A stretch of 64,000 nt of DNA from Actinomadura atramentaria DSM 43919 (GTDB taxonomy: Bacteria; Actinomycetota; Actinomycetes; Streptosporangiales; Streptosporangiaceae). Position numbers and translations under genes: made by a program. The notes beneath the pieces are model-generated. The model saw only the letters and a program-made list of their open reading frames with translations. It was not told where the DNA came from and did no database searches. Positions 1-21,753 of this stretch are shown here, one piece after another (the stretch's first letter is position 1; the number at the start of each line of letters is the position of its first letter). The stretch is from NCBI RefSeq assembly GCF_000381885.1, contig NZ_KB907214.1:248001-312000 (forward strand). Reading direction: 5' to 3'.

Positions 1-3000
1 CAAGTCCGGCAGATCGCCCGGAGGCAGGCTCGCCAGCAGCGATATCGGGAGCTGCGCGTGCGTGATCCGCGCGTCCCGCAGGAACGCCAGCAGCGGTTCG
101 CCGAGCAGCGGCCCCGGCTCGGGCAGGACGAGCGTCGCGCCGTTCAGCAGCGCCGAGCACAGTTCGATCAGCGACACGTCGAACGCCGGGGAGACGATGT
201 GCGACAGCCGGTCCCCCGGCCCGGCGGGGTGCGCGGCGACCAGGCCCGCGACGCCGCGATGCGTGACGACGGCGCCTTTCGGCTTTCCGGTCGAACCCGA
301 CGTGTAGATGACGTACGCCGCGCCGTCCACAGACGCTTCGCCCGGGCACGGCGGGCCGCCGCCCTCGATGCCGTCCTCGATGACCACGCAGACCGGACGC
401 GCGTCGTCGCGCAGTAAGGCGAGGCGTTCGGCGGGATGCCCGACGTCGAGCGGGAGATACGCCGCGCCCGTCTTCACCACGGCGAGGAACGCGACCACGA
501 ACTCCGCCGAACGCGGCAGCGCGACGCCGACGAGCCGTTCCGGCCCGGCCCCGGCCGCCCGCAACCGAGCCGCGAGCCGTTCCGCGCGGGCGTCCAGCTC
601 GGCGTAGGTCAGCGTCTCCGTCGGCGTTTCCAGCGCGACGGCGTCGGGGTCCTGCGCGGCGAACAGCGCCGGGATCGTCGCGGGCGGCGGCGCGGCGGGG
701 CTCGCGAGCAGCGCGCGGCGCTCGGCCGCGTCCAGCACCGGCAGCGCCCGGACGCGCCGCTCCGGGTCCGCGACGGCGGCGGCCAGCAGGCGGCGCAGCC
801 GGGCGGCGAGCGCCTCGGCGGTCGCGCGGTCGAACAGGTCCGTCGCGTACTCGACCGCGCCCGCGAGCCCGGTCGGCCGCTCGGCGAACGCGAACGTCAG
901 GTCGAAGCGCGTGCGGTCCGGCTCGACGGCGACCGGCGTCAGCCGCAGCCCCGGCACGCGGGGCGGCTCGGGCTCGGGCGGCTGGAACGCGAGCATCACC
1001 TGGAACAGCGGGTGGCGGTGCGGCGCGCGGGCGGGGGCGAGCGCGGCGACGAGCCGGTCGAAGGGGACGTCGGCGTGGGCGTGCGCGGCGAGGTCGGCGG
1101 CGCGGACGCGGGCCAGCAGCTCGGCGAACGTCGGGTCGCCGGACAGGTCCGTCCGCAGGACGAGCGTGTTCGCGAAGAGGCCGACGAGATCGTCCAAGGC
1201 CTCGTCCGGACGGCCCGCGACGGCCGTGCCGAGCGGGACGTCGTCCCCGCCGCCGTGCGCCGACAGCAGCACCGCGACCGCCGCGCGCACGACCATGAAC
1301 ACCGTGACGCGGCGTTCCCGCGCGAGCGCGGCGATCCCCGCGCGCAGGTCGTCGAGGTCGAACCGGACGACGCCGCCCCGGTGCGTCGGCGCGGGCGGGC
1401 GCGGGCGGTCGGCGGGCAGCGGGAGTTCGTCGGGGAGGCCGGCGAGGGCGTCCGTCCAGAACTCCAGCGACGCGGGCTCGGCCGCCGCGCAGTCGGCGTA
1501 CTGGACGGGCAGCGGCGGCCAGTCCGGCGCGGCCCCGCGCGCCCGCGCCGTGTACGCGGCGGCGAGGTCCCGCAGCAGCGGCCCGGTCGAGGACCCGTCG
1601 AACGCGATGTGGTGGACGACGAGCAGCAGCACGTGCTCCTCGGGCGCGACCGCGAACAGCTCGGCGCGCAGCGGCGGCGCGGCGCGCAGGTCGAAGTCGG
1701 GCGCGGCGGCGCGCAGCAGCGCGGGCAGGTCGCCGGGCGCGGCGTCGGTGACGGGCAGCGGCACGTCCGCCGCCGGGTGGACGAACTGGACGGGCTCGCC
1801 GTCCCGCTCGGGATAGGACGTGCGCAGCGGCTCGTGCCGCGCGACCACGTCCGTCAGCGCGGCGGCGAGCGCGGCCCGGTCCAGGCGGCCGTCGATCCGC
1901 ACCGCGATCCGCACGCAGTACTCGCCAGAGCCGCCGAGCCGGTCGAGGAACCACAGCCGCCGCTGCGCCGGGGACGGCGGCGGGTCGGGGCGCGGCGCGG
2001 CGACGCGCGGCGGGGGCGCGCCGCCGATCCGCGCGGCGAGCGCCGCGACGGTCGGGGCCTCGAACACGGCGCGGACCGGCACGTCCGCGCCGAGGACGGC
2101 CCGGGCGCGGCTCGCCAGCCGGATCGCCAGCAGCGAGTGGCCGCCGAGGGCGAAGAAGTCGTCGTCCACGCCGACGCGGGGCAGGTCGAGCAGTTCCGCG
2201 ACGAGTCCGCACAGCAGTTCCTCGCGGGCGTCGCGCGGCGCGCGGCCTGTCGCGGGGGGCGCGTCGGGCAGCGGGAGGGCGGCGCGGTCCACCTTGCCGT
2301 GCGGCGTCAGCGGGAACGCGTCGAGGGCGACGAACGCGGCCGGGACCAGCGGCTCGGGCAGCAGTTCGGCGGCGCGGGCGCGCAGCGCGGACGCGGCGGC
2401 GGCGCCCGTCGTGTACGCGGTGAGGCGGCCGTCGCGCGCCACGACCGCCGCGCCGGTCACGCCGGGGCAGCCGGACAGGACGGCCTCGATCTCGCCGGGC
2501 TCGACCCGGTGGCCGCGGATCTTGACCTGGCCGTCCGCGCGGGCGACGAACACGATCTCGCCGTCGTCGGTCCAGCGCGCGAGGTCCCCGGTGCGGTACA
2601 TGCGCGCGCCGGGCGGGCCGAACGGGTCCGCGACGAACCGCTCGGCCGTCAGCGCGGGGCGGCCGAGGTAGCCGCGCGCGACGCCCTCCCCCGCGTTATA
2701 CAGCTCCCCGACGACGCCGGGCGGGACGGGCCGCAGCGCCGCGTCCAGGACATAGCAGGCCGTGTTGTCCAGCGGACGGCCGATCGGGACCGTGTCCGGC
2801 ACCGGCTCGCCGGGGGCCAGGACGTGCGCGGTCGACCACACCGTGATCTCGGTCGGGCCGTACGCGTTGACGACCGTCAGGCCGGGGCAGCGCTCCCGGA
2901 CGTGCCGCACCGCCGCGACCGGAAGCGGCTCCGCGCCGACCCACAGCTCCCGGACGCCCGCGAACGCGTCCGGGACCTCCTCGGCGAGCACCTGGAAGAC

Positions 3001-5352
3001 ACCGGCCGTGAGATACAGCGCGGTGACGCCGTGTTCGGCGATCGTGCGGCCGAGCACCGCCGGGTCGGGGCGGCCGGGCGGGGCCAGGACGATCTCGCCG
3101 CCGTTCAGCAGCGGCACCCACACCTCGTAGGTGGACGCGTCGAAGGACTGCGCCGAGTGCGCGAGCACCCGCGCGTGCGCGCCGCCGCGCAGCCTCCGGT
3201 CGGCGGCGAGCGCGAGCACGTCCCGATGCGCCGCCGCGACGCCCTTCGGCACCCCCGTCGACCCGGACGTGAACATGACGTACACGAGGCCCCGCCCCTG
3301 TCCGCCGGGCGCTCCGAATCCGCCCGCGCCACGACCGGACACGCCGCAGCCGGACACGCCGGAACCCGACGTGCCGGTGCCGGACGCACCCGAGTCCGGC
3401 GCAACCGAAGCGGACGCGCCCGAGCCCGACGCGCCGGGAGCGAGCGTGTCCGAACCCGACGCACCCGGAACGGATGCGCCTGAGCGCAACGCACCGGGAG
3501 GGAGCGCTTCCGAGCCCAACGCGCCGGGAGCGGGCGCGTCCGAGCCCGACGCACCCGGAGCAAGCGCGCCCGAGCCCGACGCACCCAGAACGGGCGCGTC
3601 CAAGTCCGGCGTGCCGGGAGCAAGCGGGTCGGAGGCTGGCGTGCCGGGTGTGGCGGGGGTGGGCGGGGTGGTGATGTCGAGGACCGGGACCGTGCAGGGG
3701 AACGGGGGCGGCGTGTCGGTGAGGAGGGCTCGGGCGGACGTCGTGTCCAGTGCGGCGCGGAGGCGGGCGGGTGGGTGGCGCGGGTCGAGGGGGACGTAGC
3801 AGGCGCCCGCCTTCACGACGGCGAGGATCGAGACGATCAGGTCGGGCGTGCGTTCCTGGAGGATCGCGACGCGGTCCTCCAGTCCGACGCCGAGGGCGCG
3901 CAGCCGCGCCGCGAGCCGGGCGGCGCGGGCGTCGAGTTCCGCGTAGGTGAGCGTGCGGCGGCCCGCGCGCACGGCCACGGCGTCCGGGTGTTCGGCCGCG
4001 CGGGCGGCGAAGTGCGCGTCCAGCGTCCCGTCCGGGACGGGTTCGCGGGGCGGGTTGAACTCGCGCAGGACGCGCCGCCGCACCGCCGGGTCGAGGGCGT
4101 CGGCGCGGCCCAGCGGCGCGTCCGGCGCCCGGACGAACGCGTCCAGGAAACGCGCGAAACACGCCAGCAGCGCGTCGCCGTCCACCGGCGCGCGAGCGTC
4201 GAGGCGGAACCGCAGCGACGCGCCCGGCACCGCGACGAGCATCGCCGGGTAGTGCGCCCCGTCGTGCCCCTCGACGCCGGTGACGCGCAGCCCCGCGCAG
4301 TCCAGCGCCGCCGGGTCGGACGGATAGTTCTCGAACACCAGCAGCGCGTCGAACAGCGCCCCCAGCCCGGCGGCGCGCCGCACGTCCGCGAGGTTGGCGT
4401 GCTCGGCGTCCAGCAGCGCGAGACTTTCGGCGTGCAGCCGGGCGACCAGCGAGGACGGCGGCTCGGCCGGCTCCAGCCGCACCCGCACCGGCACGGTGTT
4501 GACGAACAGCCCGACCATCGCCCCCGCGTCCGGCACGTCCGCGGACCGCCCGGAGACGACCGCGCCGAACACCACGTCCGCGCGCCCCGTCGCGGCCCCG
4601 AGCGCCGCCGCCCACGCCGCCCGCACGGCCGTGTTGAGCGTGACGCCGTTTCCGCGCGCGAACGCCGCGAGCCGCGCGGTGAGCGTCTCGTCCAGCGAGA
4701 GGGAGGCCGTGCGCACCGGCCCGGTCGGCGTGCCGGACGGGACGAGCAGCGTCGGCCCGTCCAGCCCGGCGAGCGCCCGCGCGTGCGCGGCGACGTCGGC
4801 GGCGGCGTCGCGCCCCGCCAGCCACGCCAGGTGCGCGCGGTGCGGAACCGGCGGCGGCAGCGCCCGCGACCCGTCGTACAGGGCGAACAGGTCGCGCAGC
4901 AGCGTCGGCATCGACCAGCCGTCGAGGATCAGGTGGTGCTTGGTCAGCACGAGCCGGTGCTCGTCCGCGCCCGTCCGGACCAGCGCGGCGCGCAGCAGCG
5001 GCGGACGGCCGGGCGCGAACCGGCGCGCGCGGTCGGCGGCCAGAAACGCAGGAAACGACGCGGGCCGCCCAGTGAAATCCAGGAGACGCCACGGCACCGC
5101 GACGTCCCGGTACACGGCCTGCACCGGCCGGTCCAGCCCGGCGTGCCGGAACGCGGCGCGCAGCGCGGGATGCCGCGCCACCAGCGCGTCGAGCGCGGCG
5201 CGCAGCCGCCCGGCGTCCACCGGGCCGCGCAGCGTCAGGACGAGCTGCGTGACGTACGGGTCGGGGCCGTCGCGCTCCGCGAGGGTGTGGAACAGCATCC
5301 CCTCCTGCAGCGGCGTCAGCGGGAGGACGTCCTGTACGCGCGGTCTCGTCAC
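1..5352 (-). CDS. Nonribosomal peptide synthetase, modules 4-5 (C-A-T / C-A..., 3' end outside window)
   Basis: The start is GTG at 5352, three bases after the stop of the upstream NRPS, with a GAGGAG ribosome site inside that gene's last codons; 1784 codons are visible. Condensation domain: LPLTPLQEG near residue 8 and HHLILDGWS at 139. It follows an epimerase-ending protein, so it should accept a D-configured donor. Adenylation domain 1: FTSGSTG at about 694, with substrate-pocket residues read as D-A-Y-Y-W-G-A-V-W, which I cannot assign. The carrier has GGHS at about 1073. Second condensation domain: HHIAFDGSS at 1247. Second adenylation domain: [11 protein letters not shown] near 1683, cut off after its A4 region (pocket begins D-V-I-Q). 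Residues 565-684 are a ten-residue tandem repeat inserted between cores A2 and A3. The end of the assembly line, including any thioesterase, lies outside the window. Being an NRPS is certain; the substrates are not. Confidence 0.95.
3301..3660 (-). repeat. In-frame 30-bp tandem repeat array (12 units) inside an adenylation domain
   Basis: Twelve 30-base units in perfect phase encode ten-residue repeats of the type [30 protein letters not shown]. They sit between the A2 region (ending [11 protein letters not shown]) and the A3 core (VMFTSGSTG) of the first adenylation domain of this NRPS. Normal adenylation domains have only about 10-40 residues here. Units become more Gly/Ser-rich and diverge toward the A3 side. 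The frame is kept throughout. Confidence 0.9.
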
Positions 5353-5355
5353 GCC

Positions 5356-8300
5356 CTACTCCTCGTCGTCGGCTTCGAGCGCGGCCAGTTCGTCCGGCCG
5401 GAGCGCCACCAGCGGCGGCGCGGGGCGCCGGGCCGCGAGGCCGCGCAGCACGGTGAACCACGCGTCGGCGAGCGCGCGGACGGTGTGCGCGGGGACGATC
5501 CCCGGGCACCACGTCCACGTCGCCGAAAGGCGCGGCCCGGCGGGTCCGTCGCGGGTGACGGCGTTGACCTCGACGGCGTGCGCGGCGACCGCGCGCGGGT
5601 CGAGCCCGAGCGCCGCCGGGAGGTCCGGCAGCACGGTGAACGCCCCGAACCCGCCGCCGAACCGCCCGTGGTAGTTGAACCCGAGCCCCGGCCGGGGCAG
5701 CGCCGCGAGGACGGGCGCGGTGCGCGGGTTCAGGTGCCGCAGCAGCCCGTACCCGAGGCCGTCGCCGGGCAGTTCGGCGAGCTGCGCGGTGACGCGCGCG
5801 ACGGCGCGGTCCAGCGCCGGGCCGCCTTCGGCCGCCTCCCGCCACGGGACGTCGCCCGGGTCGAGCCGCACCGGGAACAGCGCGGTGAGCCAGCCGACCG
5901 TCCGCGTCAGGTCCGCGCCGTCGCGGCCGTGCCGTTCGACGTCCGCCAGCACCCCGCCCGGCCGCCCCCGGACGCGCGCGGCGGCCAGCGCGAGGCCGGT
6001 CAGCAGCTTCTCGGTGACGGCCGCGCCGAGCAGCGGCGCGGTCGCCGCCGCGTCCAGCGTCAGCGTGACGGACCGGGCCGCGGCGGCGGTGTCGCGCGCC
6101 GGGTCGGGCGCGCGGTCCCACGGGCAGCCGTCCCCGCCCTCGACGATCCGCCGCCACAGCGGCAGCTCCGCCTCGGTCTCCGGCGCGGCGGCGCGCTCGG
6201 CGAGCCGCGCCGACCAGGCCGCCAGCGGCGTCGGGACGGGCGGCAGGACGGGGCGGCGGCCCGCCGCGACGGCCGCCCACGCGTCGTCCAGGTCGTCGAG
6301 CAGAATCCGCCACGACACCCCGTCCACGACGAGGTGGTGCGCCATCAGCAGCAGCGTGCCCGGTTCGCACCAGACGGCCTGGAACATCGCGCCCGCGTGC
6401 GGGGCGAGCCGGGCGCGCGCCGCCTCGGCCTCCGCGCGCGGGTCCGCCCCGGCGCGGACGCGCAGCAGCTCCGGATACGGCGCGTCGTCGGCGACGGCGA
6501 GCGCGCCGCCGGGCAGCAGCCGCGCGCGCAGCACCGGGTGCCGGTCGTGGACCGCGCGGAGCGCCGCCGCGACCAGCGGCGCGGTCGCCCCGGCGGGCGC
6601 GCGCAGCAGGACGGCCTGGTTGACGCCGTCGACCCGGCCGCGGTCCACGAGCGCGCGCATCAGCGGCGTCGGCGCGACGCGCCCGGACCCGCTTCCGGCG
6701 TCCGCCGGGGCGGCGGCGGGGATCGCCGCCGCGAGGGCCGCGACGGTCCGGTGCCGGAACACGTCCCGCACCGACAGCGCCAGGCCCGCGCGCCGCGCCC
6801 GGTTCACCAGCCGGATCGCGACGACGCTGTCGCCGCCGAGCGCGAAGAAGTCGTCCTCGACGCCGACGCCGGGCAGCGCGAGCGCGTCCGCGAACAGCCC
6901 GCGCAGCAGTTCCTCGCGGGCGTCGCGGGGCGCGCGGCCGGCCGGGTCGGGCGGCGCGGCGGGCGGGTCGGGCAGCGCGGCCCGGTCGAGTTTGCCGTTG
7001 GCGTTGAGCGGCAGCGCGGGCAGGACGACGAGCGCGCTCGGCACCATGTAGTCCGGCAGCGCGGCGGCCAGCCGCTCGCGGACGCCGGAGGCGTCCCCGA
7101 CGACGTACCCGACGAGCCGCGGCGCCCCGTCCGGCCCGGGCCGCGCGGCGACGGCGGCGCGGACGACGCCGGGGCACGCCGCCAGCCGCGCCTCGACCTC
7201 GCCCGGCTCGACGCGGAACCCCCGGATCTTGACCTGGTCGTCGGCGCGCCCCGCGAACTCCAGCTCGCCGCCGCGCAGCCGCGCGAGGTCCCCGGTGCGG
7301 TACATGCGCGCGCCGGGCGGCCCGAACGGGTCGGCGGTGAACCGCTCGGCCGTCGCGGCGCGGCGCGCGAGGTAGCCGCGCGCGAGCTGCGCGCCCGCCA
7401 GGTACAGCTCCCCGACCGCGCCGGGCGGGACGGGCCGCAGCCGCGCGTCGAGCACGTAGGCGCGCGTCCCGGCGATCGGCCGCCCGATCGGCGGCGGCCC
7501 GGTCCCGCCGGGCCGGACGGCGCGGACGGTCGCCTCGATCGTCGCCTCGGTCGGCCCGTAGGTGTCGTGGAACGCGCCCGGCAGGACGCGGTGGAACTCC
7601 TCGACCAGGTCGGCGGGCACCTCCTCGCCCCCGCACATCACGATCCGCAGCGACCGGCAGCCCGCCGCGCCCGGTTCGGCGAGGAACGGCCGCAGCATCG
7701 ACGGGACGAAGTGGACGGCCGTGACGCGCTCCCGCCGGATCAGCCCCGCCAGGTACGCGGGGTCGCGGTGCCCGCCCGGCCGCGCGACGACGACCGCCGC
7801 GCCCTCGGCGAGCGGCCACAGCGCCTCCCCGACCGCGACGTCGAACCCGGCCGGGGCCTTGGCGAGCACGCGGTCGCCCGGCCCGATCCGGAACTCCGCC
7901 CGCCGCCACAGCAGCGTGTTGGCGAGCGCGCGGTGCGGGATCACGACGCCCTTGGGCCGTCCCGTGGACCCGGACGTGTAGATCACGCACGCGGGGTTCT
8001 CCGGATGCGGCGCGCGCGGGACGGCCCGCGGCCCGTCCGGCGCCACGACGGGAATCCCCAGGTCGAGCCCGATCCCGAGGTCGGCGGACGCGGCCGTGGC
8101 CCGGGCCCGTTCCGGCGGGAGGTCCGGGTCGATCGGCAGGAACGCCGCCCCGGCCCGCAGCACGGCGAGCTGCGCGACGACGAGTTCCGCCGAGCGCGGC
8201 AGCGCCACCGCGACGACCGTTTCGGGGCCCGCGCCGCGCCCCGCGAGGGCGGCGGCGAGCCGGTCCGCCCGGTCCAGCAGCTCGCCGTAGGTGAGGACGC

Positions 8301-11300
8301 CGTCCTCCGCGATGACGGCCGTGGCCTGCGGGTTCCGCGCGGCCGCCGCCTCGACCAGCTCCGGGACGGTCGTCGGCGCGGCCGGGCGCGGCCCGTCCAG
8401 CAGCGCCCCGCGCTCCCCGTCCGCCAGGACCGGGACGCGCGAGACCCGCCGCTCCGGTCCCTCGGCCAGCCCCGCCAGGACCCGCGTCAGCCGCGCGCCG
8501 AGCGCCGCGACCGTCGCCGCGTCGAACAGGTCGGGCCGGTACTCGATCTCCCCGGCCAGCCCGGCGGGCGCGCCGCGCGGGCCGCGCCGCTCGGCGAACC
8601 CGACCGTCAGGTCGAACTTGGCCGCGCCGACCCGCAGCGTCTCGGCCGCCACCCGGACGCCCGCCCAGTCGGCGGGCGGCGCGGGCGGCTCCTGCCGGGC
8701 GAGCATGACCTGGAACAGAGGCGTCCGGGCCAGCGAGCGCTCGGGGTTCAGGGCCTCCACGAGCCGGTCGAACGGGACGTCGGCGTGCGCGAACGCGGCC
8801 AGGTCGGCGTCGCGGACGCGGCGCAGCAGCGCGCCGACCGTCGGGTCGCCGGACACGTCGGTGCGCAGCACGAGCGTGTTCACGAAGAACCCGACGAGCC
8901 CGTCCAGCGCGGGGTCGCCGCGCCCCGCGAACGGCGTGCCGACCGGGACGTCGTCGCCCGCGCCGTGCCGGGACAGCAGCACCGCGAGCGCGGCCTGCAC
9001 GACCATGAACACGGTGACGCCGCAGTCGCGGGCGAGACGGTCCACGGCGCGGTGCAGGTCGGCGGGGACCGTCCACGGGACCGCCGCGCCCTCCCCGCCC
9101 GCGCCGCGCGGGCGGTCGGCGGGCAGCGCGATCTCGGCGGGGAGCCCGGCGAGCGCGGCCGTCCAGTACGCGAGCCGCTCGTCGGGCGCGGCGGTCTCCC
9201 GCTCCCACAGCGCGTAGTCGGCGTACTGGACGGGCAGCGGCGCCCACGCGGGCGCGCGGCCGTCCGCGCGGGCGGTGTACGCGGCGCCGAGGTCGCGCAG
9301 CAGCGGGCCGGTGGACCAGGCGTCCGCGACGATGTGGTGCAGGACCAGCAGCAGGACCGCGCCGTCGTCGTCGCGGAACAGGTGCGCGCGGATCGGCGGC
9401 TCCGCCGCGAGGTCGAAGCCGCGCCGCGCCGCCGCCGCCACGTCCGCGCGCGCCGTGCCGCGCTCGCGCCGCAGCGGCACCCGGACTGCGGCGGGGTCCA
9501 GGACGCGCTGGTCGCCGGACTCGGTGACGAGCGTGCGCAGCGCCTCGTGCCGGGCGACGACGTCGCGCAGCGCCGCCGCGAGCGCCGGTTCGTCCAGCGG
9601 GCCGCGCAGCGTCAGCGCGACCGGCACGTTGTAGTCGGCGGCGCGCGGGTCGAGCCGGTGGACGACCCACAGCCGCCGCTGCGCGGACGACAGCGGCACC
9701 CGCGCGGGGCGCGGCCGGGGGGCGAGCGGCGGGCGGGCGGCGCGGCCCGCGTCGAGCCGGGCGGCGAGGCGCGCGGGCGTCGGGGCCTCGAAGACGGCGC
9801 TCAGCGGAAGATCCGCGCCGAACACCGCGCGGACGCGGCCGAGGAGGCGGGACGCCAGCAGGGAGTGGCCGCCGAGGTCGAAGAACCCGTCGTCCGCGCC
9901 GACGTCCTGAACGTCCAGGACGTCGGCGAACAGCCCGCACAGCAGGTCCGCGCGCGGGTCGGCGGCGATCCGGCCGCCGCCGCGCGCGCCGGGCTCGGGC
10001 AGCGCGGCCCGGTCGACCTTGCCGTTCGGGGTGAGCGGCAGTTCGTCCAGCGGGACGAGCAGCGACGGGACGAGGTAGGCGGGCAGCGACCGCGCCGCGC
10101 GTTCGCGCAGGTCCCGCAGGTCGCCGCCGACGACGTACGCGACGAGCCGGTCGTGCTTCGCCGCGACCGCCGCCGCCGTGACGCCGGGGCACCCGGCGAG
10201 GAACGCCTCGACCTCGCCGGGCTCGACGCGGTGGCCGCGCACCTTGACCTGGTCGTCGGCGCGGCCCGCGAACTCCAGCTCGCCGTCGCGCCAGCGCGCC
10301 AGGTCGCCCGTGCGGTACATGCGCGCGCCGGGCGGGCCGAACGGGTCCGCGACGAACCGCTCCGCCGTCAGCGCCCGGCGGTCGAGGTACCCGCGCGCGA
10401 CGCCCGCGCCGCCGACGTACAGCTCGCCGGTCACGCCGGGCGGGACGAGCCGCAGCGCGTGGTCCAGCACGTACGTCCGGACGCCGGGGAACGGCCGCCC
10501 GATCGGCGGGACGCCCGCTCTCCCGTCCAGCCGTGCGCTCATCGTCGCGCACACCGTCGTCTCGGTCGGCCCGTAGGAGTTGAACAGCGCCCGGCCCGCC
10601 GCCCAGCGCGCCGCCAGGCCCGGCGGGGCGGCCTCGCCGGCCAGGTTCAGCGTCGTGCCGGGCAGGTCGGCGGGGTCCAGGACGGCGAGCAGCGCCGGGG
10701 GCAGCGTCGCGTGCGTGACGCCGCGCGCCGCGACGACCCGCGCGACCTCCGCGCCGCCGCGCAGGTCCGCGTCGCCCGCGACGACCAGCGCCGCGCCCGC
10801 GAGCCACGCCATCAGCAGCTCCGACACCGACGCGTCGAAGCTCGGGGACGCGAACTGCAGCACCCGCGACGCCGCCGTCACCCCGTACCGCGCGATCTGC
10901 GCCCCGGCCAGCCCCGGCAGCCCGGCGTGCGGCACGACGACGCCCTTCGGCCGCCCCGACGACCCGGACGTGTAGATCACGTACGCGGGATGCTCCGGAC
11001 GCGGCGGGACGGGCCGCGCCCCCGGCTCGTCCGGCGCGTCCACCGGGACCTCGTCGCCCACGACGAGCACCGGCCGCGCGTCCTCCAGCATGAACGCCAG
11101 CCGCTCCGCCGGATACGCGGGATCGAGCGGCAGGAACGCCGACCCCGCCTTCCAGACCGCCAGCACCGCGACGAGCTGCTCCACCGACCGGGGCAACGCC
11201 ACCCCGACGACCCGCTCCGGCCCGGCCCCGCGCGCCACGAGCACCCGCGCCAACCGCTCCGCCCGTACATCCAACTCCCGATAACCGACCACCCCCTCGG

Positions 11301-14300
11301 GCGCGTCGATCGCCACCGCCTCCGGAGCCCGCGCGACCTGCCGCGCGAACAGGTCCAGCACGGTCCCCCCTGGCGGGACCTCCGACGCGGCACCAGCCCG
11401 CGCACCGGACAACGGCCCAGCCCCCGCAGACGGCGGCGCAGGCGGCGGGGCGGCGATCAAGGCTTGGCGTTCGGTGGTGGACAGGGCGTCCACGCGGTGG
11501 AGGGGGCGGTTCGGGTCGGTCGCCAGGATTCGGGCGAGGCGGACGTAGCGGGCGGCGATGTCGGCGGCTTCCGCCGGGCCGTAGGCGTCCAGGCGGTGGC
11601 CGATGCGCAGGTGGAGCCCGTCGCCGCCGGACGGCAGCAGCGCGCCGGGGATCGCCGCGAGCGACAGCGGGTAGTGCGCGGCGTCGCGGCCCTCGACGCG
11701 CGTGACCCGCACGTCCGACGCCGCGGGGATGAACCCGTCCGCGCCCACCGGGTAGTTCTCCAGCACCGCGACCGTGTTGAACAGCGTGTCCGCGCCCGCG
11801 AGGCGCGCCAGGTCGGGAAGGCGCGCGTCGTGCGCGTCCAGGAGGCGGGCGGCGCGGTCGCGCAGGTCCGTCAGGATCTCCAGCAGCGTGGCCGCGGGGG
11901 CGAGGCGGACGCGGACCGGGAGCGTCGCCGCGTACAGCCCCACCGCGTCGGCCGCCCCCGGCGCGTCGGCGGGGCGGCCCGCGACGATCCCGCCGAACAC
12001 CACGTCGTCGCGGCCGGTGAGGATGCCGAGCAGCACGCCCCACAGCCCCTGCACGACGGTGTTCAGCGTCAGGCCGCGCCGCCGCGCGAGGTCCCGCAGC
12101 GCGTCGGTCGTCGCGGCGTCCAGCTCGACCAGGTGCTCGGCGGGGCGGCGCGGGCCGGGGCGGCGGCCCTCGGGGACGAGCGTCGGCCCGTCCAGCCCGG
12201 CCAGTTCCGCGCGCCACGCGCGGTCGGCCGCCGCCCGGTCCCGCGCGGCGAGGCGCGCCAGATGGTCCCGGTACGCGGGCGCGGGCGGCAGCGTCCCGCC
12301 CGAGTACAGCGCGAACAGCTCGCGGAGCAGGATCGGCATCGACCAGCCGTCCAGCACCAGGTGGTGGTGGGTGAACAGCAGCCGGTGCCCGGCGTTCACG
12401 CGGACGAGCGCGAACCGCAGCAGCGGCGGCTGCGCGGGGTCGAACGGCGCGGCGCGCTCGGCGGCGGCGAGCGCGGCGGCCTCGTCCGGGCGGCCGCGCA
12501 GGTCCGCCTCGCGCCACGGGACGGGCACGTCCGCGCGGAGCACCTGGACGGGCGGGTCGCCGGGGTGGAAGGACGCGGCGAGGTTCGGGTGGCGGCGCAG
12601 CAGCGCGGCGGCGGCCCGCCGGAGCTGCGCCGCGTCCAGTTCGCCCTCGATGTCCAGGATGAATTGGACTGTGTAGGCGTCCTCCTCGTCGTGCGTCAGG
12701 TGGAACAGCAGTCCTTCCTGCAGCGGCGTCAGCGGGAGGACGTCCAGGACCCGGCGGCCCGGCGCGAGTTCGGCGAGGCGGTCCGCGCCGATCCCGGCGA
12801 GGGGGACGTCGGCGGGGATCAGCGCGTCCGCACCGGGCTCGTCGGCGCGGTCCGCGAGCGCGGTGAGCGCGGCGAGCCAGGCGCGGGCGAACGCCTCGAC
12901 CTGCCCGTCGGGGAACAGATCGGGCGGAAACGTCCAGGCGGCGGTGAGCCGGTCGCCGTCGACCAGGGCGTCGATCGTCAGCGCGTGCGCGACGGGCGCG
13001 TCCGGCGCGGCGCCGCCCAGCAGCGGGTCGGTCTCCGGCGCGGGCGCCCAGTCGGCGTCGGCGCGCGCGAACCGGCCCAGGTAGTTGACGGCGACGCGCC
13101 GCGTCGGCACGTCGAGCGCGGGCGCCCCGACCCCGCCGTGCGGGACCTCGCGCAGCCGGGCCTTCACGCGCGCGACCGCCGCGTCCGGCGCGCCGCCGCC
13201 CGGGTCGAGCCGCACCGGGTACAGCGTCGTGAACCAGCCGACCGTCGCGGACAGGTCCAGCCCGGCCAGCTCGCCCTCGCGGCCGTGGCCCTCGACGTCC
13301 AGCAGCACCGGGCGGCCCCCGCCGACCGCGAGCGCGACGGCCGTCAGCACCAGCTCGTGCGGCGACGCGCGGAACGCGGCGGTCGCGCGGTCCAGGACGC
13401 GCGCGGTGACGTCGGCGGGCAGCGCGACGCGGACCGTCCGGCACGTCGCGGCCGTGTCGCGCGGGCCGGGGTCGCGCAGGCCCGGCGCCACCGCGTCGCC
13501 CGCCAGCGCGGCCTGCCGGCTTGCCGCGTCGCCGCCGAGCCGCGGCAGCGCCCGCGCCCAGTCGCGGAACGGCGCGGTCGCCCGCAGCGGCGGCTCGCCG
13601 CGCCACGCCGCCCGCAGGTCGGCGGCGATGATCGACCACGAGACGGCGTCCACCGCGAAGTGGTGCGCGACGAGCAGCAGCCGGGCGTCGCACCACACCG
13701 CGCGCAGCACCGGGCCGCCGCGCGGGTCGAGCGTCCGCGCCTCGGCGGCGGCGTCCGGGAGCGGCGCGGTCGCGCGGCGCAGCACGTCGGCGGCGCGGAC
13801 CGCGCCGGGCGGGGCCGCGCTCAGCGTCCGGCCGGTCAGCCGGACGCGCAGCATCGCGTGCCGGTCGAGGACGGTCTGCAGCGCGGCGGCGAGCCGGTCG
13901 AACGTCGCGTCCGCCGGGACGCGCAGGACGACCGCCTGGTGGTAGCCCGTCAGCGGGACGCCGCCGTCCAGCAGCGCCCGCATCAGCGGCGTCGGCGGGA
14001 ACTCGCCCGTGCCGTCGCCCGTGCCGCCCGTCGTCGCGCGGCGCGCCGCCGGGCGGGCCGCCGCCGCGACGGCGCGCGGCGTCCGGTGCTCGAACACCGC
14101 GCCCGGCGACGTCTCCAGCCCCGCCGCGCGCACCGCCCGGACCAGCGCGAGCGCCAGGATGCTGTCGCCGCCCAGCTCGAAGAAGTCGTCGTCCGGCGCG
14201 GCCGCCGTCCCCAGGACCTCGCCGAACGCCTGCCGGACGGTCTCCTCCGCCGAGCCCGCCGGCCGTCGCGCGACGGGCTCCGGGCGCGGGACGGGCAGCG

Positions 14301-17300
14301 CCGCCCGGTCGAGCTTGCCGTTCGGCGTCAGCGGGAACCGGTCCACCGGCACCAGCGCGGACGGGACGAGCGGCGCGGGCAGCGTCCCGCGCAGTTCGGC
14401 CAGGACGTCCGCCGCGTCGAACCCCGCGCCCGGCACGACGTAGCCGACGAGCCGCCGGTGCCCCGCCGCGTCCGTGGTCGCGACGACGGCCACGTCCGCG
14501 ACGGACGGCCGCGCCGTCAGCGCCGCCTCGACCTCGCCCGGCTCGATCCGGTAGCCGCGCACCTTCACCTGGTCGTCGGCGCGGCCCGCGAACTCAAGGC
14601 CGTCCGGCGTCCACCGGACGAGGTCCCCGGACCGGTACATGCGCGCGCCCGGCGGCCCGAACGGGTCCGCGACGAACCGCTCCGCCGTCAGTCCCGGCCG
14701 CCCGAGGTACCCGCGCGCGACGCCGCCGCCCGCGACGTACAGCTCCCCGACCTCGCCCGGCGGGACGGGCCGGAGCGCCGAGTCCAGCACCCGTACGGCG
14801 AGATCGGGCAGCGCCGCGCCGATCGGGCTCCCCGCCCGGTGCGTTTCCCGGTCCAGCGCCTGCGCCGTGACGTGGACGGTCGTCTCGGTGATCCCGTACA
14901 TGTTCACGAGCACGGGCACGTCCGGCCGCCGCCCGTACCACTCCGCGAGCCGCGCGACGTCGAGGGCTTCTCCACCGAGCACGACGGTCCGCAACGCGAG
15001 CCGCCGCCCGTCGTCCGCCCGCACGAGCCCGTAGAACGCGGAGGGCGTCTGGCTCAACACCGTGACGCGCTCATCCGCGAGCAGCCCCAAAAAATCCTCC
15101 GGCGACCGACTGACCGCATAAGGCACGACAACGAGCCGCCCCCCGAACAACAACGGCCCCCACAACTCCCAAACAGAAAAATCAAACGCACAGGAATGAA
15201 ACAGCGTCCACACATCCCCGGCCCCGAACCCGAGCAGCCCCCGCGCCACCCCGAACAACCGCACGACATTCCGATGCGTGACGACAACGCCCTTGGGCCG
15301 CCCGGTAGACCCGGACGTATAAATGACATAAGCGGCGTTGTCCGCCCCCAACCCGCCCGCCACCCCACCGCACACCTCGTCGCGCCCGCCCCCGCACCCA
15401 GACCCACCGCGCGCCCCACCCCCAGAGACCGGACGAGCCGTGTTCTCACACGACCCGCCCGCCCCACCCCGCGCCCCACCACTCAGCCGGTCACGGCCTG
15501 CGGCATCGTCCCCACGCAGATCAAACGACGAGCCACCCGCACGCCCCTGCACCCCACCGCAACCCGAGGCGTCGCCCTTGCTCGGGTCGTCCGCCTCGCC
15601 CTGCGGATCGCCGCGCAGCCCGCCAGGACCCGACGCATCGTCCTCGCGCGGACCGAACCCCGGAACACCCGCATCGCCCCGTACACCGCCGCGCGAGCGG
15701 TCGCGGCCTGCGGCATCGGCCCCGCACAGACCAAGCGACGAGCCGCCCGCCTCACCCTGCACCCCAACGCGCAGCCCACCGAAACCCGAGGCGTCGCCCT
15801 TGCCCAGGTCGCCCGCCGGAACACCCGCCTCGCCCTGCGGGTCGCCGCGCAGCCCGCCAGGACCCGACGCATCGTCCTCGCGCGGACCGAACCCCGGAAC
15901 ACCCGCCTCACGCCGCGCGCCGCCGCACGGGCCGCCGGAATCCGAAGCGTCGTCCTCGCTCAGGTCGCCCGCTGGGGCGCCCCCTTCGCTCGGCGCGCCG
16001 CCGCGCGGGCTGGTGGAGGTTGGGGCGTCGTCGTCGCGTAGATCCAGCGTCGGGACGCCCGCATCGGCGGCCGCGCGGGCGGCGGCGGGGTCGCCCATGT
16101 GGACGAGCAGGGCGGGAGCGGCGTCGGTCAGCGTGAACCGCAGCCGCTCCGGCGGATGGTCGAGGTCGAGCGGGACATAAGCGGCCCCGGCCTTCAACGT
16201 CCCGATGATCGCCGCGACGAGGTCCACCGACCGGGGCAGCGCGAGCGCGACCCGCCCCTCCACCCGCGCTCCCGCCGCCACGAGGCGCGCCGCCAGCCGC
16301 TCGGCCCGCGCATCCAGCTCCGCGTACGTCACCGAGACATCCCCGCACGTCACGGCCACCGCGCCCGGCAACCGAGCAACCTGCGCGGCGAACAACTCCG
16401 GCAACGTCGCACCACAACCCGCCCCGCACCACTCGGCCCACACATCGCCCCGGCTTTCACCACCGCCTGCGCCGCACAGCGCAACATCGCACTCGCCGCA
16501 CGACGCAACACCGCGCCCACTGCACAACGCGGGGCCAGGCTCGCCGCGCAACGCGCCATCGTGCTCGCCGCAGGACGCGGCACCGCATTCACCGCACAAC
16601 GCAGGGCCAGGCTCGCCGCACGACGCGGAACCGCGCTCGCCGCACTCGCCGCAGGACGCGGCACCGCATTCGCCGCACAACGCTGGACCGCGCTCGCCGC
16701 GCGGCGGGGCGCAGCACGCGCAAGACGCGGCGTCATGCTCGGCGCCCGGCGCAACGTCACGCTCAGCGCAAGGCACGACGTCACGCTCAGCGCCCGGCGC
16801 GGCGGCACGCTCAGCACGCGGCGCAACGTCACGCTCAGCGCACGGCGGGACATCACGCTCGGCACGCGGCGCGACGTCACGCTCCGCACGCGGCGCGGCG
16901 GCACGCTCAGCGCAAGGCGCAACGTCACGTTCGACGCGCGGCGCAACGTCACGCTCCGCGCGCGGCGCGGCGTGCGGTTTGGTCGGGGCGGCAGAACACC
17001 CCGCAGTGAGAGTCCGTTCATTTTCTGTCGAGACGTCGAGGCGGCCGAGTGGGGTCTCCGGGTCGGCCGATGCGAAGGCGCGCAGGAATTCAGTGAAACG
17101 CGTCCGGTGGGCGTCGGCGGCTGCGGAGGAATAGCGCGCCGGGTTGAAATCCAGGTCCAGGCGAATGGCGTCCGCGTCGTCGTGAACGGTCAGCAGCACG
17201 TCGTCCACCGGCCCGGCCGCGAGGTTGTGCGCCGTCGCCGCGCGGCCGTGGAAGAGCACCGGCCCGCCGAAGCCCACCACGTTGACGACCGGCCCGACCA

Positions 17301-18315
17301 GCGCCCGTCCCTGCCCGAGAATGCCCAGTTCACGCCGGATGTCCTCGTGCCGGAACCGCTGGTGGCGCAGCATTTCCCCGGTTTCCCGCGCGACGTCCGA
17401 CGCCAGCGCGCCGACCGTCGTCCACGGCGAGACGGACGCGCGCAGCGGCAGAACCGTCGAGTACATCCCCGGCACGCGCTGCGCCAGCGGCGTCGCGCGG
17501 CCCGACACGGTCACGCCCACCACGACGTCCCGCGCGCCCGTCACCCGGTGCAGGTACGCCGTGAGCGCCGCGACGAACACCCGCGCGCGGCTCGCCCCGG
17601 CGACCCGCGCGATCCGCCCGAGCCCCACGAGCGAAGGCCGGGGCAGCACCGCGCGCCGCCGCAGCGCCGACCGCGAAGCCGAGGCCGACACGGCGGCCAA
17701 CGACGGCACTTCGGCGACCCCGGCGAGCCGATCCCGCCAGAACCGCAGATCCGCCTCCCGACGCGGCGACGCCCGGTACGCCGCTTCCTCCGCCAAGCGG
17801 TCCGCCTGCGCCGCGAACGGATTCGGCGGCACCGGCGCACCGGCGGCGAGCGCGTCGTACACGGCGGCCGCCCGCCGCGCCAGCAGCACGAACGTGAACC
17901 CGTCGGTGACGGCGTGATGCGCCCCCTGGAACCACAGGAAACGTCCGTCCGCGACCTCGACCAGCGCCGTCCGCACCAGCGGCCCCCGCGCCAGGTCGAA
18001 CGGCCGCGCCAGCTCCGCCCGCATCCACGCGACCGCCGCCTCCAACGGCTCCGACGAGAAGTCCAGCAGCGGGACGTCCACGTCACCCGCCGCGAGAACC
18101 TGCCGCAGCCCGTCCGCCGTCTCCACGAACCGCACGCCGAACACCCCGGCGTCCGCCACCGCCCGCCGCACGGCCGCGACGAAGGGCAGCGGATCGACGC
18201 CGCCGACGTCCAGGTACTCCCCGACGTTGTAAACCGTGCTCTCCGGGTCCAGCCGCTGCGCGTACCAGACCCCCGCAGCCCCAGCAGCGACCGGCGCGAC
18301 TTCAGAAGACGTCAT
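5356..18315 (-). CDS. Trimodular nonribosomal peptide synthetase (C-A-T-E / C-A-T / C-A-T-E)
   Basis: 4319 residues. ATG at 18315 is preceded by GAGGTGAG and lies one base after the aminotransferase stop. Module 1: condensation domain with HHAVTDG at 133, resembling EntF/DhbF starter condensation domains (RHQRF...LVGPVVNV, then LAAGPVDD). It is followed by a repeat linker (about 450-615), an adenylation domain with A3 near 998, carrier GGDS at 1385 and epimerase [10 protein letters not shown] at 1551. Its pocket reads D-F-W-S-V-G-M-V-H, the threonine type. Module 2: C (HHLVLDGWS near 1984), A (A3 near 2447; pocket D-A-S-T-N-A-S-V-C, unassigned), carrier GGHS at 2818. Module 3: C (HHIVADAWS at 2993, with Ala for the usual Gly), A (A3 near 3446; pocket D-V-G-H-M-G-T-I-E, unassigned), carrier GGDS at 3830, epimerase [10 protein letters not shown] at 3993. 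Predicted contribution: D-(allo)Thr, X, D-X. Repeat insertions at about 450-615 and 763-992 are exceptional. Confidence 0.95.
15500..16029 (-). repeat. In-frame 78-bp tandem repeat inside module-1 adenylation domain
   Basis: Five full 26-residue units, two shortened 22-residue units and one degenerate unit, each beginning DA(S/A/P). The typical unit end is [12 protein letters not shown]. The non-repeated adenylation-domain sequence just before unit 1 reads [12 protein letters not shown], so the array looks like an amplification of the host domain's own A2-A3 loop. A further 50 or so Gly/Cys-rich residues follow before [10 protein letters not shown]. The insert spans residues 763-992, about 230 residues where roughly ten are normal. 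Confidence 0.9.
16471..16695 (-). repeat. 24-bp tandem repeat, Cys-rich eight-residue units in C-A linker
   Basis: Nine units of 24 bases (one carries 9 extra bases) encode octapeptides of the form GECGAASC and GEPGPALC. They lie in the linker between the first condensation and adenylation domains of the trimodular NRPS. The stretch contains more than a dozen cysteines, which is unusual for an NRPS linker. Confidence 0.88.
16727..16966 (-). repeat. 24-bp tandem repeat, [12 protein letters not shown] units in C-A linker
   Basis: Ten units of exactly 24 bases encode the octapeptide consensus VAPRAERD (variants [24 protein letters not shown]). The array sits directly upstream in the protein of the Cys-rich array and shares its eight-residue period, although the consensus differs. 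Together the two arrays lengthen the C-A linker by about 165 residues. Confidence 0.9.
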
Positions 18316-18316
18316 C

Positions 18317-19621
18317 TCACCTCGCCCCCCGCACCCACGCGGCACCGCACGAAGGAGACGCAAGCTCCCCCAGCACCGCCCGCAACCGCGTCAGCGCCCG
18401 CGCCACCGGCGGCGCGGCCACCGGATCGGCCGCGCGCAGCACCGCACGACGCTCCTTGGGCGTCGCGCCGTGCAGAAGACTCGTCGCCGCGCGGAACCGC
18501 AGAGCCCCCGGATCGTCCCCGAAGTTGTGGCCCCCGAGAACCGCCACCCCGAAGTCGTCCAGAAGCATCCGCTGCAAAGACGGAGAATCCACGACCCCCC
18601 GCGAAGCCAGCACCGGCCGAAGCGCCTCCAGATCCGGATACAGATAAAAGCCCCCGCCCGGCTCAGGACAGCGAGCCCCCGCAGCCCGGAACAACGAAGC
18701 CACCGCAGCGGTGACCGCCCCGTGCAGCCGCGCGCTCGCCCGGACGTGGTCGCGCACCTCCGGCGGCTCCGCGAACGCCACCCGCGCGACCTCCTGCTGC
18801 GGCCCCGCCAGCGCCGACCAGCTCTCGCTCGCCAGCGCCGTCACCCGCTCCCGCAGCGTCCGCCCGCCGGAACCGTCCGGGAACCGGACGACCCCGACCC
18901 GCCACCCGCCGAGCGACAGGCTCTTGCTCAGCCCGGTCAGCACGACGGTCCGCTCCGGCAGCGCCTCCGCCGGGCTGAGCACCGCCGCCGCCGGATCGTG
19001 CAGCAGGTCCCGGTAGATCTCGTCGGACACCACCAGCAGCCCGAACCGCGCCGCGACCGCGCACACGTCCCGGACGAGGCCCGGCGGCGCGAGCGCACCG
19101 GTCGGGTTGTCGGGCAGCGTCAGGACGAGCAGCCGCGGATCGGCCCCCGCCGCCCGCGCCGCCGGGACCGCGCGCGCGAGCCCGTCCGGGTCGGGGACGC
19201 CGCCGCAGCCCTCCGGCGCCCGCACGCGGACGGCCCGCCGTCCGAGCAGCCGCGTCTGCGGCGCGTACGTCACCCAGCACGGCGTCGGCAGCACCACGTC
19301 CCCCGGCACCGCCGCCAGCACGGCCAGCAGCAGCGCCTTGGCCCCCGGCCCGAGCAGCACCTGGTCCGGCGCGGTCGGCAGCCCGCGCCGCGCGAAGTAC
19401 CCCGCCGCCTCGGCCCGCACCACCGGACGCCCCGCGACGGGCCCGTAATCCTGGTGGACGGCCCCCGCCGCGAGCCGGTCCACCAGCACGCGCGGCGGCG
19501 GCAGCCGCGACTCCCCGAACCCGAGGTGCAGCACGTCCTGCCCGGCCGCGACCCGCTCCCGGACGTGCTGGTCCAGCAGCAGGTTCGGCGACACGACGGG
19601 CCGGCCGCGTGGGTGCGCCAT
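18317..19621 (-). CDS. PLP-dependent aminotransferase, class I/II
   Basis: 434 residues. ATG at 19621, two bases after the oxygenase stop; the stop is one base before the NRPS start. Fold-type I signatures are visible: a glycine-rich PLP phosphate region ([10 protein letters not shown]), the carboxylate-binding NPTG (LTLPDNPTG), the DEIYRD segment, and the Schiff-base lysine in [15 protein letters not shown]. The C-terminal half keeps a substrate-arginine candidate in [10 protein letters not shown]. The family moves an amino group between an amino acid and a 2-oxo acid. Its position in the middle of the NRPS operon suggests that it makes or modifies a non-proteinogenic building block, for example by aminating an oxidised precursor made by the neighbouring P450/oxygenase. 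The substrate cannot be read from the sequence. Confidence 0.88.
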
Positions 19622-19623
19622 CG

Positions 19624-21753
19624 TCAGCTCCAGTACAGCAGCGGCTCGGCGGGCCCGCGCGACGCGATGAACGCCGCCGTCCCCACCCGGGGCTCGTCGG
19701 CCGCCGCCGCGACCGCGTGCAGCAGCACCGAGCTGAACATGATCAGATCCCCGACGGCGGGCCGGAACGTCAGCGCGGCGGGCCCCACCGACTCCGGCTC
19801 CAGCCCCTCGACCTCGACGATCACCGCCCGCTCCGCCTCCGTCGGCTCCCGCAGCCACAGGTGCAGCTCGCCGCCCCGCTCCGGCGTCGCCAGATACACG
19901 TTCGCGGTGAGCTGCTCCCGGATACCCGCGATCTCCGGCGCGTCGGTCTCCTGGTCGATGCGGTCGTTGTGCGGGAAGAGCTGCGACCCGCCCGGCCGGA
20001 ACACCCGCAGCGCCCCCACGAAGCACGGCTGCCCGCGCAGCGTCAGCAGCCGCGCGCCGCCCGGCCACAGCTCCTCCAGCAGCAGCCGCAGCCGGTCGAT
20101 CGGCGACGGGTACGGCGCGAACAGCGCCCGCGACGCCCGCGTCGAGTCCGGCGCGGCCCGGTGGTACTCCGCCACCCGCTCCGGGTCCCACGCCGTGTCG
20201 ACGTGCGGCGTGAACACCCGCCCCACCGACCCGCTCTTCGCCTTGTGGTAATTGCCCAGCTCGGGATGGTCGAGGGCGCGCGCGGCGGCGGCGCGCGCCG
20301 CGTCCGCGGGGAAGAAACCCCGCACGTGGATCGCCGCGAGCCGCCGCCGCAGCAGCGCGTCCAGCGTGTCCGCCGTCAGCTCGTGCGCGACGACGGGCGC
20401 GGCGCGCGGCGGCAGCGCGGAATCGGTGGCGGGCATGGCCGGCCTCCCTCGGTGTGTTCGGCTGCGGACCTCGATCGGCAGCGCGCGCGGCCCCCGGAAC
20501 GCGCCGCCCTCGACGGGCCCCGGCGGCCCGGCGAGCCGGACGTCGGACGTCCGGTCCAGCAGCACGTCCAGCGCCGTCGTCAGTTCGAGCCGCGCGAGCG
20601 GCAGGCCGAGGCACAGGTGCGCCCCGAACCCGAACGTCAGCGCGCGCGGCGCGCCGCGCGTCCAGCGGCCGGGGTCCCACCGGTCCGGCGCGGCGTAGGC
20701 GCGGTCGTCGCGGTTCGCCCCGGCCAGCAGGACGTGCAGCACCGCGCCCGCCGGGACCTCGACGCCGCCGATCACGGCGTCCTCGGTCGCGAACCGCAGC
20801 GTCGAGTGCAGCGGCGGATCGCGGCGCAGCGTCTCCTCGACGGCCGGGCCGACCAGCGAGCGGTCCGCGCGCAACGCCGCCAGCCGCCCCGGCTCCGCGA
20901 GCAGCGCCAGCAGCAGGTTCCCCAGCGCGCGGACGGTCGTCTCCGTCCCCGCCGCGATTAGCAACAGCACAAGCCGAACAAGCCCTCGCTCGTCCAACCC
21001 GTGGTTGGCCAGCCCGTGGTTGGCCAGCCCGCGCCCGGCCGGTCCGCGCTCGTCCAGTCCGCCCCCGGCCGGCCCATGCCCGGCCAACTCGCGCTCGGCC
21101 GACCCGCGCCCAGCCGCCCCATGTCCGATCGGCCCGCGCTCGTCCAACCCGTGCCCGGCCTCGCGCAGCAGCCGCGCCAGCAGCCCCGTCTCGGCGCGGT
21201 GCCCGCGGACGAGCCCGGCGATCCGCTCGTCCAGCCGGTCCCGCGCGGCCAGCGCCGCCGCCAGGTTCCCCGCCGGACGGTCCAGGTAGCGGATCACCGG
21301 ACCGAGCGCCGCGTAGACCTCCGCCGCCCGCGCCGCCGGAATCCCGAGCACGCCCGCGACGACCCGCGCCGGGACGACCGCCGCGAACGCCGCGACCGCG
21401 TCCACCGGCCCCCGGTCCACGAGCGCGTCCACCGCCCGCTCCACCACCGGCCGGACGAGCGTCTCCCCGTACCCCGCGACGGTTCGCGCCCGGAACTCCG
21501 GCGCGACCGCCCGCCGCAGCGCCCGGTGCCGCGCCCCCTCGGTGTCGAGCAGGTTCGGCCCGAACACCTGCCGCGTCGCGCGGAACGGATGCGTCCCGCC
21601 CACGCCGGGCGTGGTCAGCGCCTCGACCGCCGCGTCGTACCGCGCGACGAGATACGTCCCCGCGTCCGACCGCACGACCGGCCCCAGCTCCCGCACCGCC
21701 GCGTAGTACTGCCACGGGTCGTCGCGGGGACCGGGCGGCGGCGGCAGGCTCAT
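19624..21753 (-). CDS. Cytochrome P450 joined in frame to a 2-oxoglutarate/Fe(II) oxygenase
   Basis: One uninterrupted 709-residue frame from ATG at 21753. Residues 1-439 are a P450: I-helix AAGTETT, ExxR in VEETLRR, heme-cysteine loop FGFGAHLCLG. Residues 440-709 are an oxygenase with the iron ligands H-N-D (LFPHND) and a distal histidine (SVLLHAV), followed by an arginine (EPRVG) that could bind 2-oxoglutarate. The carboxylate ligand argues for hydroxylation or desaturation rather than halogenation. At the junction an internal ATG (20436) has its own GGGAGG site about six bases upstream, yet there is no stop codon before it. The gene may therefore make a fusion, a separate oxygenase, or both. 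Residues 202-256, just before the I-helix, are an 11-unit repeat. Tight spacing to the carrier-protein gene suggests oxidation of a carrier-bound amino acid (inference). Confidence 0.9.
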   Translation of the reverse strand: MSLPPPPGPRDDPWQYYAAVRELGPVVRSDAGTYLVARYDAAVEALTTPGVGGTHPFRATRQVFGPNLLDTEGARHRALRRAVAPEFRARTVAGYGETLVRPVVERAVDALVDRGPVDAVAAFAAVVPARVVAGVLGIPAARAAEVYAALGPVIRYLDRPAGNLAAALAARDRLDERIAGLVRGHRAETGLLARLLREAGHGLDERGPIGHGAAGRGSAERELAGHGPAGGGLDERGPAGRGLANHGLANHGLDERGLVRLVLLLIAAGTETTVRALGNLLLALLAEPGRLAALRADRSLVGPAVEETLRRDPPLHSTLRFATEDAVIGGVEVPAGAVLHVLLAGANRDDRAYAAPDRWDPGRWTRGAPRALTFGFGAHLCLGLPLARLELTTALDVLLDRTSDVRLAGPPGPVEGGAFRGPRALPIEVRSRTHRGRPAMPATDSALPPRAAPVVAHELTADTLDALLRRRLAAIHVRGFFPADAARAAAARALDHPELGNYHKAKSGSVGRVFTPHVDTAWDPERVAEYHRAAPDSTRASRALFAPYPSPIDRLRLLLEELWPGGARLLTLRGQPCFVGALRVFRPGGSQLFPHNDRIDQETDAPEIAGIREQLTANVYLATPERGGELHLWLREPTEAERAVIVEVEGLEPESVGPAALTFRPAVGDLIMFSSVLLHAVAAAADEPRVGTAAFIASRGPAEPLLYWS
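20434..20452 (-). promoter_or_regulatory. Internal ribosome binding site and ATG for the oxygenase part
   Basis: On the minus strand the sequence reads GAGGGAGG, six bases (CCGGCC), then ATG at 20436, in frame with the P450. It looks like a normal gene start whose upstream stop codon has been lost. Confidence 0.6.
20986..21150 (-). repeat. In-frame 15-bp tandem repeat (11 units) inside the P450
   Basis: Eleven 15-base units in perfect phase encode pentapeptides such as GLDER, GPAGR, GLANH and GPIGH. They end directly at the native I-helix entry (GLDER-GLVRLVLLL). GLANH and its coding sequence occur twice in succession, and GLDER occurs three times. The array lengthens the loop before the I-helix by about 50 residues. 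Confidence 0.92.

Follow-up and report, generated by a model that had tools for sequence, protein, structure and literature searches.

Modular PKS and NRPS enzymes carry Ala/Pro-rich repeat linkers, as seen in an orthologous PKS linker where a 15-bp array has 21.3 copies in genome G039 (L124, 5328-5647) and 11.7 copies in genome G035 (L130, 4018-4192). Insertions are also known within adenylation (A) domains, which are interrupted at a2-a3 in TioN and MarQ and at a8-a9 in KtzH and TioS (PMC11355689, PMC8949500). Passages of both papers describe a8-a9 as an insertion point of catalytic domains, and those of PMC11355689 describe a2-a3 as well. Intragenic repeats, according to passages of Persi, Wolf and Koonin 2016 (PMC5120217), diverge quickly under relaxed purifying selection, and horizontal repeat divergence is highest there in actinobacteria (a Streptomyces set).

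The NRPS operon described here carries six in-frame tandem arrays that share features with each of these systems. Like the repeats in the passages of PMC5120217, new copies within the protein diverge fast and under little constraint, but here they lie inside megasynthase catalytic domains and inter-domain linkers, several unrelated arrays occur in one operon, and an array-free syntenic orthologue is available for comparison. As in the interrupted A domains of the passages cited, alignments and motif distances place inserts at a2-a3 and a8-a9, and the A core remains recognisable. Unlike in those domains, what is inserted is a tandem repeat and not a catalytic domain, with disorder predicted where it was modelled (NRPS1 a2-a3); neither NRPS1 nor either of the two NRPS2 parts has a Pfam match to a methyltransferase, oxidase or ketoreductase. 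Low-complexity repeats in inter-domain linkers, of a length that varies between orthologues, are shared with the Ala/Pro-rich linkers, which lie between domains, whereas four of the six arrays here are inside domains (two a2-a3, one a8-a9 and one P450). The arrays are a real case, and an uncommon one, of an evolutionary process already known, partly at known permissive sites.

The window, the whole stretch of 64,000 nucleotides that was analysed, corresponds to G000:C7:248001-312000 of a 6.71-Mb draft genome whose genus is inferred to be Actinomadura. The NRPS operon measures about 32.5 kb, lies on the minus strand and extends leftward beyond the window edge to C7:239040; the frames opposite it on the plus strand are shadow frames, as judged from ORF translations. 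Its first gene (21996..23543) is an ORF for a standalone A protein, which scores 309.9 bits against NCBIfam TIGR01733, slightly under the cut-off of 317.4, and is 81% identical to a protein of Actinomadura rubteroloni (P0148). The end of ORF 21757-22968 was recognised by eye as a small carrier protein (PCP) frame (21757..22050, start approximate). It is followed by one ORF (19624..21753) encoding a cytochrome P450 and then, in frame, a 2OG-Fe(II)/WelO5-like oxygenase. These are two genes with a stop between them in G039 and one uninterrupted frame here, a possible gene fusion. An aminotransferase-like gene (18317..19620, start approximate) was recognised by eye from its translation. NRPS1 (5356..18363) is 4335 aa long, counted from its first start codon, and has the order C-A-T-E-C-A-T-C-A-T-E, in which both domain order and the C/E distinction are inferred from family matches and motifs. 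The window holds the N-terminal part of NRPS2 (1..5352); the whole gene (C7:239040-253352, 4770 aa) encodes four modules plus a thioesterase, PF00975, at its end. All of these genes are on the minus strand.

We scored the NRPS domains with A and C motif patterns that we take to be characteristic of them. The A3 motif occurs in seven of seven A domains by a loose pattern and in six of seven by a strict one, and there are seven PP-binding stretches in NRPS1 and NRPS2. A strict HHxxxDG pattern matched five of the nine condensation-family domains and does not resolve the other four. The catalytic motifs of C, A and T and the terminal thioesterase are present, which fits a putative functional assembly line.

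The operon is flanked by map/DUF1707 on one side and a metallophosphoesterase-like gene on the other, close to a rpsM-rpsK-rpsD-rpoA-rplQ-truA cluster (all names by eye). The same chromosomal place holds the operon in G039 too, and in the equivalent interval of G035 (3.2 kb) neither the NRPSs nor the A protein nor the P450/2OG ORF had a match at E 1e-15. An orthologue search over 150 genomes at E 1e-45 returned the own genome only, in a draw evidently without G039, which has an orthologue. Scanning contigs with P0010 turned up one P450, a distant one. No second strain of the species was among the matches listed for P0010, P0008 (residues 400-1120) and P0012 in 5.8 billion proteins, a search that scored only candidates sharing most words, with the best 120 of 1233 and the best 120 of 360 for two of the queries.

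The initial annotation had proposed four in-frame array sites in one NRPS operon, and TRF recovered all four, above codon shuffles. In the P450, an insert of 50 aa between helix H and helix I (21004..21153; TRF extent 20994-21160, periods 15 and 45) is built of 15-bp units. NRPS1 carries about 200 extra residues in its C1-A1 linker (16411..17028; TRF 16461-16973), with two 24-bp unit types in a 72-bp super-period, and about 230 in the a2-a3 loop of A1 (15337..16032; TRF extent 15591-15963), with 78-bp units. The a2-a3 insert of NRPS2 A1, about 115 aa (3310..3663), consists of 30-bp units and has a TRF extent of 3335-3634 with periods of 15, 30, 60 and 90. The restriction to four sites did not hold, as NRPS2 outside the window adds two arrays, one of 87-bp units in its third C-A linker (C7:245321-245724) and one of 42-bp units at a8-a9 of its last A domain (C7:240301-240735), together with a non-repetitive insert. 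All six arrays lie on the minus strand, one in the P450 H-I loop, two in C-A linkers, two in a2-a3 loops and one in an a8-a9 loop, and alignments and motif distances bear out the placement in loops and linkers adjoining conserved cores. The in-frame tandem arrays of the operon are real and continue past the window edge.

The best TRF score per array is 136-520. The maximum is 321 in NRPS1, at most 145 after codon shuffling; 520 in NRPS2, at most 131 after shuffling; and 152 in the P450/2OG ORF, at most 100 after shuffling (100 whole-gene shuffles each and a further 100 confined to 100-codon blocks, none of which reached the real maximum). As had been proposed, the basic periods (15, 24, 30, 42, 78 and 87) are all divisible by three and the ORFs stay open; frame-shifting units of the kind expected in phase-variable contingency loci are absent from the operon, since every period in it is divisible by three. 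The non-repetitive insert, a seventh site, adds 68 aa after A5 of the last A domain of NRPS2 (A5-A6). It was considered as a seventh array and rejected, as no TRF repeat of score at least 80 is present there.

Arrays had been described as missing from the window's remaining A domains, its C domains and its ribosomal genes. This holds at a TRF score of at least 100; below it there is a weak 21-bp array in an NRPS1 A-T linker (6928..6982, minus strand; 55 bp, 2.6 copies, score 82). Some arrays of the window beyond the operon are more than ordinary low-complexity tails. One (42368-42544, score 120; feature 42368-43269) is in a Gln/Pro-rich protein and another (58255-58698, score 167) in an Ala/Glu-rich protein, and neither protein has a Pfam match.

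Arrays of this kind could be an artefact of sequencing or assembly, and the assembly is a draft in 37 contigs. We consider this very unlikely. The long frames are open, the units match by only 67-84% when each array is represented by its best-scoring TRF row, and the longest exact internal repeat is 65 bp in one array and 18-39 bp in the other five. Ordinary short-read lengths exceed 18-65 bp, so a short-read assembly should resolve the arrays, although this is not proof. Genomes assembled into one contig, G014, G023 and G052 among them, have similar arrays as well.

In aligned residues, the proteins are 69% (NRPS1), 70% (NRPS2), 75% (P450/2OG) and 82% (A protein) identical to those of the syntenic operon of G039, a related genome of the same genus, and all six arrays fall in gaps of G039 in these alignments. 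Across 40 kb containing that operon, no TRF array in G039 reaches a score of 80. The P450 insert is missing from 14 P450 homologues. The A2-A3 distance is 278 residues in NRPS1 A1 and 167 in NRPS2 A1, against a median of 65 and a maximum of 109 elsewhere (643 A domains measured of 673 found, in 119 NRPS proteins among 1233 matches). At A5-A6 the distance is 108, against a 99th percentile of 49 (n = 393; maximum 155, one oddly parsed case), and at A8-A9 it is 232, against a median of 51 (n = 551). For the A-domain loops and the P450, homologues free of inserts point to insertion in this lineage and not to loss in G039; for the two C-A linker arrays, G039 is the one homologue that suggests the same polarity.

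A protein-level repeat scan found five segments in the 9105 residues of NRPS1 and NRPS2 and none in their G039 counterparts. Over the 807,308 residues of the 119 NRPS proteins it found two, one of them, in P0131, apparently in an A8-A9 loop. A protein-level scan of the genus sample also flags Arg-rich stretches that are likely ORFs in the wrong frame, and the segment counts of that sample were not used. The initial annotation had suggested a search of other clusters of the genus for repeats before A3. The A2-A3 distance is at most 103 across 164 A domains of the genus sample, and an array placed by eye in an apparent a2-a3 loop occurs in one further operon, in G062.

In an AlphaFold2 model of NRPS1 A1, residues 125-355 have a pLDDT of about 25 and no secondary structure, while the A core is folded and matches NRPS A-domain structures in the PDB. 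The P450 model is folded as well, with residues 202-247 below pLDDT 50 between helices H and I, where one short helix is predicted. These models come from shallow alignments (5 and 15 sequences) with mean pLDDT of 61 and 79, and in them both inserts (NRPS1 a2-a3 and P450) are predicted to be disordered.

Seven A8-A9 gaps of more than 110 residues occur in the 119 NRPSs, all in proteins with Pfam accessions that we take to be of methyltransferase type. Such proteins raise the question of whether the arrays are degenerate remnants of inserted catalytic domains, that is, decayed interrupted A domains, as a2-a3 and a8-a9 are sites of methyltransferase interruption in passages of PMC11355689. However, the inserts are short-unit tandem repeats, the modelled A-domain insert is without predicted structure, and no methyltransferase family matched NRPS1 or NRPS2 at E 0.001. 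We consider this origin very unlikely.

The units differ from site to site, and at two sites the sequence points to a local origin. In NRPS1 the first unit of the a2-a3 array is native sequence, VPTLDLRDD, and the P450 array repeats 5-aa units (HGLDE and RGLAN, for example), where G039 has a single GHGLDEHG at the equivalent spot. Higher-order units are also visible, for example two 78-bp copies with four differing bases.

Differences between neighbouring units at codon positions 1, 2 and 3 are 0.16/0.18/0.17 in the a8-a9 array, 0.23/0.25/0.25 in the NRPS2 C-A array, 0.22/0.34/0.33 in NRPS2 a2-a3 and 0.31/0.42/0.45 in NRPS1 a2-a3. A change at the second codon position always alters the amino acid, and second-position change is similar to or greater than third-position change in six of the seven arrays compared, with the NRPS1 C-A array split into its two unit types. 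The exception is the first C-A array of NRPS1 (0.20/0.23/0.35), in which the third position is ahead and some constraint may exist. Orthologous NRPS1 genes differ by 0.19/0.19/0.39, a clear third-position excess. Random NRPS1 codon pairs differ by 0.62/0.73/0.56, so base composition by itself puts the second position ahead of the third, and the comparison falls short of a formal test.

The enzyme cores keep their motifs and remain constrained. The dN/dS of aligned parts is 0.34-0.41 (Nei-Gojobori, base composition uncorrected), and a relative-rate test with NRPS outgroups assigned 638 changes to the own lineage and 557 to the G039 lineage (ratio 1.15). Relaxed selection over the whole operon, or decay of its cores, was considered as the main cause and rejected on these counts, with a mild own-lineage excess remaining.

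Selection for such linkers had been offered as one explanation of the arrays, which would then be adaptive spacers that alter domain motion, docking or solubility. The inserts do sit at hinges and surface loops, and catalytic insertions use the a2-a3 and a8-a9 points (passages of PMC11355689). Yet second-position divergence is high in six of seven arrays, which does not favour selection for the linker sequence; the units differ per site, a counterpart is missing in G039, and A2-A3 distances as long as these were seen neither in the 643 other A domains nor in the 164 of the genus sample. An adaptive role is therefore unlikely.

The initial annotation had also suggested a process specific to this cluster. 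In random stretches of the same genome (31 stretches of 20 kb at preset places, 620 kb of 6.71 Mb), there are 30 arrays of score at least 100, and arrays are found in other species of the genus too. Since similar arrays occur in random stretches, duplication of this kind is not peculiar to the cluster. Seven other large-genome species gave 13 arrays of score at least 100 in 380 kb, eight of them from G052; the idea that the genome of the window is unusually repeat-rich was dropped, as 30 in 620 kb and 13 in 380 kb do not differ significantly (p = 0.35). Forty NRPS stretches of nine other genomes, hand-picked from C-domain matches among those listed, contain 19 arrays in 781 kb.

Periods in the random stretches are divisible by three in 17 of 17 arrays labelled coding and in 5 of 13 labelled non-coding (Fisher p = 2e-4). 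Over all genomes sampled the counts are 29 of 30 and 8 of 22, where the label follows a rule of ORF and GC by codon position, so that some 'non-coding' arrays may be coding. The one exception is a coding-labelled array of period 22 in another genome (L075). The multiple-of-three rule therefore looks like a frame filter, as it is almost universal in coding arrays and not in non-coding ones. Another enzyme of the genome, a PCMT-family methyltransferase (L029, 10145-11734; G000:C8:110145-111734), has an internal array at about residues 174-302. Its homologues from G010, G035 and G014, which are 40-59% identical, can be aligned to either side but leave out about 172-312. At L029 16249-16626, the genome of the window also has 67 copies of a 5-bp unit in an array of 378 bp that is labelled non-coding.

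Probably, then, the arrays are intragenic minisatellites that arise from local tandem duplication active throughout the genus, pass a frame filter and are tolerated in surface loops, some of which are known insertion points. Replication slippage or unequal recombination, acting on DNA of very high G+C content, would have duplicated short pieces of linker or loop in tandem, repeatedly and at several levels, within the NRPS and P450 genes of a single lineage. The same process would yield arrays of any period genome-wide, while within genes almost only those with periods divisible by three would survive. Within enzymes, survival would be expected where the chain can bulge, as in the C-A linker, the a2-a3 and a8-a9 loops and the P450 H-I loop. 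In such bulges the amino-acid sequence would drift under little constraint, whereas purifying selection continues to act on the catalytic cores. The arrays would be near-neutral for enzyme function, and the operon is presumably expressed and working.

A uniform process with tolerance leaves the density in this operon unexplained, because there are six arrays of score at least 100 in 32.5 kb here and none in 100 kb of the other NRPS places of the genome (five stretches, all remaining condensation-domain places found in it), which have six weak arrays of score 81-95. The arrays are thus concentrated in this operon, although the process itself is not bound to the cluster. From the random sample about 1.6 arrays would be expected (Poisson p 0.006, post hoc). 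This operon is an array hot spot.

A cause at the level of the operon, such as local replication or transcription stress, a raised duplication rate or a past relaxation of length constraint, would account for this contrast and for the absence of arrays from the G039 orthologue. A second array-rich NRPS operon was found in G062 (C1:8945001-8985000; L150, L151), with five arrays of score at least 100 inside its NRPS genes. Judged by eye, they appear to lie in the a2-a3 and A1-A2 loops of A domains, within an E domain, at the end of a C domain and in a loop preceding A7. Arrays are also clumped over 47 NRPS stretches of ten genomes with this operon excluded (variance/mean 2.22, P about 1e-4 under uniform spread), but these stretches take in PKS and flanking genes, and random stretches of the genome of the window are somewhat clumped too (variance/mean 1.41, up to five arrays per 20 kb). 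The core enzymes, moreover, are not clearly relaxed at a rate ratio of 1.15, and the operon G+C of 0.773 is barely above the 0.70-0.77 of other NRPS stretches; high G+C as the cause was for the same reason not convincing. We regard an operon-level cause as possible, if doubtful. The G062 operon has a further array at the tail of a neighbouring ORF. A broader proposal, which we put forward still more tentatively, is that Actinomadura NRPS operons, differing by species, undergo bursts of in-frame tandem duplication in which many permissive loops grow together, those of A, epimerisation and P450 domains included.

The initial annotation knew of no earlier description, and we likewise found none in the literature searched, which includes few subscription journals; among the matches listed, no title or abstract opening described tandem-repeat arrays inside A domains. 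Loop lengths are treated in passages of PMC10212144, a paper in which the phrase 'tandem repeat' occurs once.

The operon is a natural example of long insertions inside A domains and a P450, partly at the points used by interrupted A domains and with an array-free orthologue to compare. It hints at where NRPS engineering may add sequence and offers a route by which A-domain insertion points could arise. It also poses the question of how single megasynthase operons collect arrays while their neighbours stay clean. If loop inflation does act operon-wide, it would supply unconstrained raw sequence at the places where catalytic domains elsewhere insert.
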